NCBI GenBank assembly: GCA_007996965.1
Contig: BIMP01000001.1
Coordinates: forward strand, 868,001 to 932,000
Length of the DNA: 64,000 bases
Origin: a cyanobiont of Ornithocercus magnificus
Lineage (GTDB): Bacteria; Cyanobacteriota; Cyanobacteriia; PCC-6307; Cyanobiaceae
Reading direction: 5' to 3'
The notes under the pieces: model-generated
What the model saw: only the letters and a program-made list of their open reading frames with translations
Databases searched by the model: none
Told to the model about the DNA's origin: nothing
Translations under genes and position numbers: made by a program
Part shown: positions 51,828 to 55,897 of the stretch, in pieces
Layout: each line of letters opens with the position of its first letter
How positions within the stretch are numbered: the stretch's first letter is position 1

Positions 51828-52281
51828 ATCACTAATTATATGACATAATTGGTAAGAAGACTTTATTCAACTGTGATGAGTTTATACTCAAAAAATTGAG
51901 GGGAATAAGCTGCCTAAATAGCAAAGTCTAGCTCAGGCAACCCAAGTAATTTTACTCGAAAAGTTACTCAGCCTACGGCTATTGACTATAGTTAACCAAG
52001 GAAGCATGTCAGACCAGTAAGATATAAACAAAACCATGTCAAACACCTATGATAGCTTGACTTAACCCGCTATTATCAAAAGGGTCTGAAAAATACGATC
52101 ATGTGCAAAAATACCAGTTAGCAATCTGGTATATCTTATCAGTAAAGGTTAAAAATATGACGTTGGTTAGCAGTATATCCTGATACGGGACGTGAGAGAA
52201 TCTGTCACATTGTAAAAAGGGTGACGACGGATAAATATGCAGAATCACGAGTGAGAGGAAGTTTTCCCGCATCATTCGTAT

Positions 52282-52740
52282 TAAGGAGCTCCGAATGAGG
52301 ATTTTCCAAAGACTACTGCTAACTCCTGCCATGCTTGGAATTCTCGCCCCTGTTGCTGTTGCTGAGACAAATGTACCTGAAGTCTCTAAACGCGCCGCAA
52401 CCAGCGAGCAAGTTACAAGCGTCTTCCAATTTTCCGACATTTACCCGACCGACTGGGCCTACCAGGCTCTGAGCAGCCTGGTCGAGCAATATGGTTGTGT
52501 TGCTGGTTACCCCAATAGGGCATTCCGAGGCAACCGAGCTATGACTCGCTTTGAGGCTGCCGCCCTGCTAAATGCATGCCTTAACCGCGTTGGTGAAGTT
52601 ACTGATGGGGTCAGGCGCTTAACCAAAGAGTTTGAGGCTGAATTGGCTGTCCTAGGTGGTCGCGCTGATGGTCTCGAGGCCCGCATCGGTGAATTGGAAG
52701 CAACTCGGTTCTCTACCACTACCAAGCTGAGAGGTAAGAC
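52282..52740 (+). repeat. 459-bp perfect direct repeat, copy 1
   Basis: This copy runs from TAAGGAG, just before the first porin's ribosome-binding site, to the codon series ending GGTAAGAC. It is base-for-base identical to 54165-54623. It covers the leader, signal peptide, SLH domain and coiled-coil linker, and stops where the barrel begins. Confidence 0.97.
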
Positions 52741-54115
52741 ATCATTCGTAATTGGCTCTAATACTTTCAGTGGTAACGCTTCTATCTCAAAACAATTCAG
52801 CTCTTCTGGGAAAGATACTATACCTTCATCCACTGAAACTACTAAGAAGATGGCAGATGTAGCTAGGGAAAACCTTGGCGCTGTCACTTTCAACTATGAC
52901 CAGCGCCTGACCCTTGATACGAGCTTTACAGGCAAAGATCTACTACGCACTCGCTTCAGGACTGGTAACTTTGGGGACAGTGCTTTTGGTTTTTCTACAA
53001 CTACTGGGATCCCTAGTCCTTTTGAAGGCAACTACAGTGCGTTCTCTGGTCTTGAAACAGCTTCTGAAGAAGATGACATCTTTAGAATTGATCGCTTGTT
53101 CTATCAGTTTCCTCTAGGTAGTGAACTCACGCTAATCGTAGGTGGCTTAGTACGTCAGGATGATATGCTTCCTACTTGGCCTAGTATGTATCCATATGAA
53201 CCGATTCTTGACTACTTTACTTATGCAGGGGCTCCGGGAACCTATAATTTAAACATTGGTCCTGGTGCTGGTATTTGGTGGAAAAAAGGTGGCTTCAGCA
53301 TCGCTGCTAATTACATCTCAAATGACGGCAACTTTAGTAGTCCTGCTATAGGAAGTTTCATCAATAACACTTCTAATTCAACTAGGACGGTCCAACTAGC
53401 ATACAGCAATCAAGGTTGGGCAGTTTCTGCTGCCTACAACTACAGCTCTAAGGAGTTTGGTAATATGTATGAAAGTACTTCAACTCCTCTGGCTACTAGG
53501 ATTGGTAGTCTTGGGGACACCAACTCTATTGGTCTCAGTGCCTATTGGCAGCCAAACAGAACTGGCTGGGCTCCCTCAGTAAATTTTGGCTGGGGGTTGA
53601 ACAATACGAGCGGAGATAGCAGCTCTAAGCTGCTGGGCTACAAATTCAACTCTGCAACCACTCAATCCTGGTATGCAGGCCTGCAGTGGAGAGATGTCCT
53701 GGCAGAGGGCAATAGTGCAGGCGTGGCGGTTGGGCAGCAAGGCTTTGTCACGTCTATAGATCTGGCAGGCACAGGCGACGGGCCTGACAAGGCACACAAA
53801 GTGGAAGATGTCCTCGCCCGCGATGGCCAGTACTCCTGGGAGATTTGGTACCAGCTGCGAGCTGCTGACAACGTCTATGTCACTCCTGCGCTTTTTTACC
53901 TAAGCCGTCCCCTAGGCGCAGCTACACAAGGCTTTACCTTTGACCAAATCGGCGCCCTTAGTCAGAGCAACGTTCGCTTTTTGACCGTGGGGACAGGGAT
54001 GTCTGCAGTCCTAGCACTGCCTCTCTGGCCCGAATTCGGGCCAGAGAGTATACTGCTGAGGGGATTTGGACCAAAATCGGCATCTCTTGTTTCCAAACCG
54101 GGAAGAATTTTGTAG
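52295..54115 (+). CDS. SLH-domain outer-membrane porin 1, reading through its normal stop
   Basis: The protein has a signal peptide (cleavage after AVA, residue 23), an SLH domain at about 45-100 (FSDIYPTDWAYQALSSLVEQ and on) that binds the cell wall, a coiled-coil at about 105-140, then a beta-barrel (OprB/Som type). The barrel should end after residue 562 with QSNVRF, matching the QTNFKF end of porin 2. A five-T run (53978-53982) places TTG where four Ts would give TGA, so the frame runs on 44 residues through a palindrome to a non-barrel tail, giving 606 residues. The terminal aromatic beta-signal is thus masked. AAGGAG precedes the ATG by 6 bp. Confidence 0.88.
   Translation: MRIFQRLLLTPAMLGILAPVAVAETNVPEVSKRAATSEQVTSVFQFSDIYPTDWAYQALSSLVEQYGCVAGYPNRAFRGNRAMTRFEAAALLNACLNRVGEVTDGVRRLTKEFEAELAVLGGRADGLEARIGELEATRFSTTTKLRGKTSFVIGSNTFSGNASISKQFSSSGKDTIPSSTETTKKMADVARENLGAVTFNYDQRLTLDTSFTGKDLLRTRFRTGNFGDSAFGFSTTTGIPSPFEGNYSAFSGLETASEEDDIFRIDRLFYQFPLGSELTLIVGGLVRQDDMLPTWPSMYPYEPILDYFTYAGAPGTYNLNIGPGAGIWWKKGGFSIAANYISNDGNFSSPAIGSFINNTSNSTRTVQLAYSNQGWAVSAAYNYSSKEFGNMYESTSTPLATRIGSLGDTNSIGLSAYWQPNRTGWAPSVNFGWGLNNTSGDSSSKLLGYKFNSATTQSWYAGLQWRDVLAEGNSAGVAVGQQGFVTSIDLAGTGDGPDKAHKVEDVLARDGQYSWEIWYQLRAADNVYVTPALFYLSRPLGAATQGFTFDQIGALSQSNVRFLTVGTGMSAVLALPLWPEFGPESILLRGFGPKSASLVSKPGRIL
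54020..54047. terminator. 28-bp perfect palindrome after the ancestral porin 1 stop
   Basis: CTCTCTGGCCCGAA is followed directly by its reverse complement. It begins 36 bp after the presumed original stop of porin 1 and probably served as its transcript-end hairpin. It now lies inside the extended reading frame. No T-run follows. Confidence 0.55.
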
Positions 54116-54164
54116 CTTCTTAGTGGATCGCCCAACGATCCAGCCACTTTCCCGACTTCTCTCC

Positions 54165-54623
54165 TAAGGAGCTCCGAATGAGGATTTTCCAAAGACTACT
54201 GCTAACTCCTGCCATGCTTGGAATTCTCGCCCCTGTTGCTGTTGCTGAGACAAATGTACCTGAAGTCTCTAAACGCGCCGCAACCAGCGAGCAAGTTACA
54301 AGCGTCTTCCAATTTTCCGACATTTACCCGACCGACTGGGCCTACCAGGCTCTGAGCAGCCTGGTCGAGCAATATGGTTGTGTTGCTGGTTACCCCAATA
54401 GGGCATTCCGAGGCAACCGAGCTATGACTCGCTTTGAGGCTGCCGCCCTGCTAAATGCATGCCTTAACCGCGTTGGTGAAGTTACTGATGGGGTCAGGCG
54501 CTTAACCAAAGAGTTTGAGGCTGAATTGGCTGTCCTAGGTGGTCGCGCTGATGGTCTCGAGGCCCGCATCGGTGAATTGGAAGCAACTCGGTTCTCTACC
54601 ACTACCAAGCTGAGAGGTAAGAC
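54165..54623 (+). repeat. 459-bp perfect direct repeat, copy 2
   Basis: This copy starts in the leader of the second porin and ends at GGTAAGAC, identical to 52282-52740 and offset by 1883 bp. The bases on both sides differ between copies, so the borders are sharp. Confidence 0.97.
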
Positions 54624-55767
54624 CGACTTCGTAATTGGCGGGACTGGCTACACCAGTGACTATGAATCAAATGATTTGGAGGACCAAAATGGCAATTACT
54701 TAGGCACCGATGCAATCGCTTTCTCCTACCGACAGACTATCGACATAAACTCGAGCTTTTCTGGAAAAGATTTGCTCCAGTTACGAGTCCGCTCTGGCAA
54801 TTTTGGAGAGAATGCATTTTCTGGTAAAGGCTATACTGGCAAGCAAGCTCAGGTTGAGTGGGCTAATAGCAATGCTGACACACTAAAAGTTGACAAACTT
54901 TGGTACCAGTTCCCTCTCGGCGATGATTTTATGGCCTACATCGGTGCTAAAATCGAAGCCGACCAGATGCTTGCTACGCAGCCTTCCATCTATAGACATA
55001 TACTCAAGCAGTTTGATCTTGGTGGCTACTATGGCGCATATAGCACGGTTGCTTCTCCTGGCATAGGTATCAACTGGAAGGGTAAGCGCAACTCTAATCC
55101 TGATGAGCCCAAACTCAGCTTCAGCGCAAATTATGTGGCTCAAAACGGCAACGTGAGTAACCCCACACGAGGTGGCATCGGCAACGATGACTCTCAGAGC
55201 AAACTCCTAACCCAGATTGCTTATGGCAATCCCCAGTGGCAGGTCTCTGCAGCCTATTCTTATATACAGGGTGGGGCAACAGTTGGCTACGGTACTCCTC
55301 TAGCAACTAGTACCGAAGGCTTTAAGGAAGCTAATGCCATAGCTGTCAATGCTTACTGGCAACCCGGTGAGAATATATGGATTCCTAATATTAGTGCTGC
55401 CTGGGGACTTACTGACTTTACACTCCTCGATAACTCTATGGGTGGTGTGCGTGATCAAAGCCAAAATTGGTTTGTAGGCTTTAACTGGAAAGATGCCTTT
55501 GCTGAGGGCAACCTTCTCGGCTTTGCCGTTGGCGGGCCTGGCTGGGTTACTGAGAGCAACGGCCCTGGCACACCTAATGATGGCAACATGGCTTTTGAGC
55601 TTTACTATAAGTTCCAAGTCACTGATAACATCTCGATCACGCCAGCAGCCTTCTACCTTAGCCGTCCTTTTGGCGAGAAAACCGGCACTAGCTACAAATA
55701 TGGTGGCTTGGGCAATGATAGTTTCGGAACCGTCGGATATCTGCTGCAGACTAACTTCAAATTCTGA
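54178..55767 (+). CDS. SLH-domain outer-membrane porin 2
   Basis: The 529-residue protein shares its first 148 or so residues exactly with porin 1: signal peptide, SLH domain and coiled-coil. The barrel that follows is clearly different in sequence and length but shares short signatures such as DKLWYQFPLGDDF (FYQFPLG in porin 1), AYWQPGENIWIPNISAAWGL and FYLSRPFG. It ends in QTNFKF, with the C-terminal aromatic residue expected for outer-membrane insertion. AAGGAG precedes the ATG. It starts 62 bp after porin 1. Substrate is unknown; such porins are the main outer-membrane channels of these cells. Confidence 0.92.
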   Translation: MRIFQRLLLTPAMLGILAPVAVAETNVPEVSKRAATSEQVTSVFQFSDIYPTDWAYQALSSLVEQYGCVAGYPNRAFRGNRAMTRFEAAALLNACLNRVGEVTDGVRRLTKEFEAELAVLGGRADGLEARIGELEATRFSTTTKLRGKTDFVIGGTGYTSDYESNDLEDQNGNYLGTDAIAFSYRQTIDINSSFSGKDLLQLRVRSGNFGENAFSGKGYTGKQAQVEWANSNADTLKVDKLWYQFPLGDDFMAYIGAKIEADQMLATQPSIYRHILKQFDLGGYYGAYSTVASPGIGINWKGKRNSNPDEPKLSFSANYVAQNGNVSNPTRGGIGNDDSQSKLLTQIAYGNPQWQVSAAYSYIQGGATVGYGTPLATSTEGFKEANAIAVNAYWQPGENIWIPNISAAWGLTDFTLLDNSMGGVRDQSQNWFVGFNWKDAFAEGNLLGFAVGGPGWVTESNGPGTPNDGNMAFELYYKFQVTDNISITPAAFYLSRPFGEKTGTSYKYGGLGNDSFGTVGYLLQTNFKF

Positions 55768-55837: not shown

Positions 55838-55897
55838 GCTGTGCCTTAGCCAGACAAAAGCCCCTACAAAGGGGCTTTTGTCTGGCTAAGGCACAGC
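55838..55897. terminator. 28-bp perfect stem after porin 2
   Basis: Arms 55838-55865 and 55870-55897 pair without a mismatch over 28 bp around ACAA. The inner part (AAAAGCCCCT with AGGGGCTTTT) is a standard terminator; the outer part extends the stem by about 18 bp. It ends the porin transcript about 70 bp after the stop and may stabilise its 3' end. Confidence 0.8.

Follow-up and report, generated by a model that had tools for sequence, protein, structure and literature searches.

The window, by which we mean the whole 64,000-nucleotide stretch of DNA analysed here, carries two porin genes lying in tandem on the plus strand. Porin 1 as sequenced occupies positions 52295-54115 (606 aa) and porin 2 positions 54178-55767 (529 aa). 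Pfam places an SLH domain at residues 46-89 and an OprB domain from residue 108 of the window porins, and both proteins match NF033921 (por_somb) with 268.9 and 248.5 bits against a cut-off of 100, covering positions 1-465 of the 485 in the model. By these matches they are to be classed as SomA/SomB-type porins with an SLH anchor. A wall-binding SLH domain and a periplasmic coiled-coil stem are encoded in the 5' third of each gene, and an OprB-like barrel in the rest. The predicted beta-barrel (model, mean pLDDT 69) finds OprB/OmpF fold matches, and stem residues 43-139 match in sequence the SLH/coiled-coil stalk of Veillonella OmpM (E about 1e-14). Domain, family, stalk and model evidence thus agree with the proposal of the first-pass annotation of this DNA that a constant secretion and anchoring stem is joined here to divergent barrels, which are of OprB type.

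Identical stems in the three porins of one genome

When the window was compared with itself, positions 52282-52740 and 54165-54623 (both plus strand) proved to be the same at 459 of 459 bases, and the search of the genome's own DNA returned the second copy as well. This module comprises the Shine-Dalgarno sequence, start codon, signal peptide, SLH domain, coiled coil and about the first 7 residues of barrel strand 1. Its 5' edge is sharp, identity ending at 52281/54164; as the block begins 13 bp before the ATG (TAAGGAGCTCCGAATG), the Shine-Dalgarno sequence is included and the promoter is not. At the other edge, the block is followed by 4 mismatches, 12 matching bases and background thereafter. 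The 3' end falls in codon 149, and since barrel strand 1 comprises residues 142-160 of the AlphaFold model (mean pLDDT 69; boundaries approximate), the edge lies about 7 residues inside this strand. The base-match track follows the divergent barrels over 52741-53980 in porin 1 and 54624-55764 in porin 2, the latter with OprB/OmpF fold matches, and their nucleotide identity is 0.49. All 86 fourfold-degenerate codons of the 459-bp block are identical, while such sites in the barrels of the genome's three porins agree in only 36% of cases, which rules out chance as the source of the block. Both the base-perfect module and the abrupt divergence where the barrel begins had been noticed from the letters alone, and both are borne out, with the edge now placed slightly within the barrel.

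The same reading had assumed two copies of the module, and this has to be corrected. Own-genome searches, covering 1.88 Mb in 16 contigs, revealed three porins and exactly three stem copies. The third porin is found on the minus strand (C1:1089488-1091047), about 167 kb away from the other two, and its segment C1:1090599-1090970(-) equals block positions 88-459 at 100%. These 372 bp are common to both window stems (52369-52740 and 54252-54623, plus strand). The leader, signal peptide and barrel of the third porin differ from those of the tandem pair, and the 459-bp version of the identity is specific to the latter. In the tandem pair the shared tract therefore begins ahead of the start codon, in the third porin only just past the signal peptide; as far as sequences tell, such unequal tract lengths between different porin pairs are what gene conversion would leave. 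A TGA flagged as a break in the third porin was dismissed, as the frame continues for 519 aa up to a terminal FRF, followed by a stop of its own. As regards silent cassettes, nothing pointed to a programmed system of phase or antigenic variation: own-genome searches found no silent stem cassette, and all three stem copies head long porin reading frames.

It needs to be added that porin 1 as sequenced lacks the usual C-terminal phenylalanine and carries a 45-residue tail instead. It is the only one among 104 porins without a final F; the other 103 have it (NFKF in porin 2, SFRF in porin 3). The tail arises because a run of five T (53978-53982, plus strand) puts the expected TGA (53982-53984) out of frame. 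This run may be a homopolymer error or reflect a recent real loss of the normal end. A perfect hairpin-type palindrome of 28 bp containing GAATTC (54021-54048) lies between the porins, inside the extended frame of porin 1; it is possibly the terminator of this gene, although it has no T run. The perfect hairpin after porin 2 (55838-55897; 28-bp arms, 4-nt loop) is extremely stable and is probably a terminator.

The suspicious homopolymer, together with the fact that the analysis rests on the assembled sequence in 16 contigs, might suggest an assembly or polishing artefact in which the sequence of one stem replaced those of the other two. We consider this very improbable, for the three copies sit in unique flanks on a single 1.58-Mb contig and finished single-contig genomes show the same pattern. 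Exact blocks of 460-485 bp occur in the latter, including pairs hundreds of kb apart, and hence the pattern is not peculiar to one assembly. Consensus collapse could nevertheless have inflated the exactness of the match in this one genome.

Concerted evolution of stems across Cyanobiaceae

The comparison was extended to 27 genomes of Cyanobiaceae, almost all in a single contig, with 104 SLH porin genes between them; 111 codons of the stem were compared, the barrels of the same genes serving as a control for codon usage and age. Stems are much more alike within genomes than between them, both in nucleotides (0.945 versus 0.813) and at fourfold sites (0.883 versus 0.576), while for barrels the corresponding values are 0.547 versus 0.529 and 0.409 versus 0.362. 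The nearest stem was found in the gene's own genome for 95 of the 104 genes, and the nearest barrel for 16 of them. Likewise, where the minimum would be 26, the stem tree has 29 changes of genome label and the barrel tree 89. In short, stems group by genome and barrels by ancient type. The within-genome excess spans the signal peptide and the stem and reaches background level at the barrel, dropping sharply at the junction (0.81 in the last stem window, 0.44 in the first barrel window). An excess at neutral sites, confined to a bounded tract and absent from the control barrels, is the signature of concerted evolution. Together with the nearest-stem counts and the three base-perfect stems, it substantiates the recent homogenisation that had been suggested for the window pair; the alternative that stems and barrels diverge at the same synonymous rate among related genomes fails on the unequal values given above.

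Copies of the stem in one genome do change together. Between the genome studied here and G030, the stems show 51 synonymous and 50 non-synonymous differences, each fixed in all three copies on either side, and stem variation among the three copies of our genome is zero. Stems of barrel orthologues are no closer to each other (0.898) than stems of non-orthologues from the same genome pairs (0.892). Flanks, both upstream and downstream, track the barrel (upstream mean local score 31.5 versus about 10), which means that the stem evolves apart from what flanks it on either side.

Could purifying or codon-level selection keep the stems alike without any recombination? The stem protein is indeed well conserved across the family (0.88 aa identity between genomes). 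However, fourfold sites of stems differ by 42% between genomes and by 12% within them, and codon bias, as judged by the barrel control, contributes only about 0.05. Outside Cyanobiaceae we compared 17 genes from 5 genomes, 4 of which gave 29 within-genome pairs. Their stem proteins resemble each other closely, but at fourfold sites the identity amounts to only 0.40-0.60 within genomes against 0.395 between them, meaning that other families retain the stem protein and not its synonymous identity. Selection on the protein alone therefore does not give the Cyanobiaceae pattern, and selection without recombination was rejected on the fourfold-site contrast, its probability being practically negligible. 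Since these 17 genes show little or no synonymous excess within genomes, we do not claim a phylum-wide phenomenon. One distant cyanobacterium, G314, has five dispersed porins with nearly the same stem protein, one pair reaching 0.97 nucleotide identity, possibly a sign of older or rarer homogenisation outside Cyanobiaceae.

A second possibility is that one porin was recently duplicated in tandem and that one barrel then diverged fast or was replaced, with no continuing conversion. It would fit the observation that the longest identity (459 bp with the Shine-Dalgarno sequence) belongs to the tandem pair. It would also fit a locus at which G140 has two genes and G212 one, the difference being a stem-to-stem unit, gained or lost, in the same arrangement as in the window. 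Yet tandem duplication is not enough to account for the identity, since the dispersed third copy combines this stem with another signal peptide. Moreover, tandem pairs (0.964) and dispersed pairs (0.966) are equally homogenised, and the barrels of porins 2 and 3 are of types present in other genera. The porin 2 type is widespread (15 of the 103 clustered genes) and that of porin 3 counts 6 genes, each cluster drawing on several genera, which marks them as old types; the porin 1 barrel stands alone in its cluster, with a closest relative at 58% aa (G282.3). Simple duplication thus seems to us an improbable account. One case of a different kind was encountered in G221, where two tandem porins (G221.4 and G221.5, G221:C1:1380400-1384900) are identical over 1502 bp, barrel included; unlike the stem-only cases, this is a real duplication or conversion of the whole gene, and a recent one.

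Barrel replacement at syntenic loci of relatives

Porin genes were grouped by upstream flank, which gave 18 locus groups. Upstream-matched pairs had the same barrel in 62 cases and a different one in 46, but as these pairs are not independent, we relied on the locus groups. More than one barrel type was found in 4 of the 18, while flank and barrel stay together in the other 14.

The best swap cases are G033 versus G122 and G060 versus G248, and it should be kept in mind that the swap counts rest on few loci. The first concerns a locus syntenic across 11 genomes of genus g34, of which 10 have a porin-2-type barrel; the barrel of G033 is of the porin-3 type and finds its closest relative in genus g5. 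Compared with G122, G033 shows 87% identity upstream, 81% in the leader and 92% in the stem; the barrel and the next 200 bp cannot be aligned, and the flank beyond is again at 86%. When G074 is considered together with G122, the values are 81-88% upstream and 92% in the stem, the barrel is unalignable, and the downstream region from 200 to 3000 bp is at 83-86%. In the second case, one gene of a tandem pair differs between G060 and G248 in the same manner, with 92% identity upstream, 93% in the stem and 86% downstream around a barrel that cannot be aligned, and the neighbour gene of the pair is conserved throughout. A different barrel between orthologous flanks and behind an orthologous stem, that is exchange of a barrel cassette, is what these relatives display. 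Exchange of barrels on a constant stem, as first proposed for the window, is in this way seen directly at syntenic loci of relatives, and may have occurred in the window pair itself. One porin, G248.2 (G248:C1:2009100-2013500), has a normal stem and a barrel whose best match among the compared porins reaches no more than 47% aa; this barrel is possibly a recent import.

One might go further and assume that barrel exchange is the main process, with new barrels entering by crossover in the stem and stem identity being a mere by-product. The clean replacements just described and the 4 groups with several barrel types speak in its favour. On the other hand, swapping of barrels alone would leave stems at fixed loci unhomogenised, and in the 14 groups where upstream flank and barrel remain together the stems still go by genome. 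We regard this idea as unlikely, though less so than tandem duplication.

Proposed mechanism and known systems

In our opinion, by far the most probable explanation is that gene conversion recurs in the SLH/coiled-coil stem and nowhere else in the gene, combined with occasional replacement of the barrel in which the stem serves as a homology arm. Conversion itself we infer from the patterns. Stems of one genome, tandem and dispersed alike, would repeatedly be overwritten on each other by non-reciprocal homologous recombination, most likely RecA-type conversion between paralogues, limited to the region where homology survives. Barrels, at about 50-55% nucleotide identity, would be too divergent to take part, and tracts would stop at the stem/barrel junction. 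Purifying selection on the stem, suggested by its match to the stalk of OmpM, a trimeric peptidoglycan-binding porin, would keep its homology through the demands of a constant wall ligand and of trimerisation. Conversion, in turn, would erase synonymous differences and so preserve recombinability, which closes a loop that leaves the barrels outside; the latter may be under selection for diversity. From time to time a fixed locus would receive a different barrel, by replacement or insertion, with the stem acting as the homology arm. In the genome studied here, all three porins appear to have just been homogenised (372-459 bp identical).

The 459-bp direct repeat, with its spacing of 1883 bp, also predicts occasional deletions which would fuse the leader and stem of porin 1 to the barrel of porin 2. 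If stems are homogenised genome-wide and barrels replaced, trees of whole porin genes would mislead, and orthology should be read from barrel and flank rather than from the gene. The stem would also offer a defined recombination zone for studying surface change in picocyanobacteria, and the question of why all porins of one cell should have an identical wall anchor could be approached here as a natural experiment. Porins are the main solute route into these very abundant photosynthetic cells. A broader and rather doubtful idea is that "one stem, many pores" is a genome-wide rule of the picocyanobacterial outer membrane. Through conversion, all stems of a cell would then form one unit that co-evolves with the wall of that cell, which would permit mixed trimers or a match to the wall ligand. 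Stem homology would also be a docking site at which horizontally transferred barrels are captured, and nutrient channels and phage receptors would be turned over in this way. Any effect on nutrient uptake, phages or grazers, as the first-pass annotation envisaged, is speculation.

How does this compare with known systems? The window proteins resemble the NF033921 "iron uptake porin" family in score and in their SLH plus OprB layout, but the family description is silent on homogenised stems or barrel replacement, unlike the picture obtained here. Veillonella OmpM (PDB 8BYM/8BYS/8BZ2) is described as a peptidoglycan-binding outer-membrane tether with a trimeric stalk and a barrel (PMC10628300). 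Its stalk is like the window stem by sequence and its barrel like the window barrel by fold, although it belongs to another phylum and the sequence match is restricted to the stalk.

Long-lasting concerted evolution in prokaryotes includes cyanobacterial psbA/psbD (PMC6053082). As in the porins, within-genome conversion of dispersed paralogues recurs there across a lineage, but psbA/psbD are treated as homogenised whole genes, whereas the porins would be converted in one domain only; porins are not mentioned in that paper. Nor did the open-access literature yield any account of conversion in porins of cyanobacteria, which is no proof of absence.

The babA/babB/babC genes of Helicobacter pylori show concerted evolution, intragenomic conversion and chimeras (PMC4552749, citing Pride and Blaser 2002). 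They share with the porins the status of outer-membrane paralogues with near-identical ends, a divergent functional part, conversion and chimeras. There, however, the variable part lies in the middle, between the N- and C-ends, and contingency repeats play a role, while here a single 5' wall-anchor module is homogenised and the entire barrel varies, across a free-living cyanobacterial family. Outer-membrane families homogenised by conversion are thus already known; what sets the present case apart is that homogenisation keeps cleanly to one domain, persists throughout the family and is coupled to the replacement of barrels.
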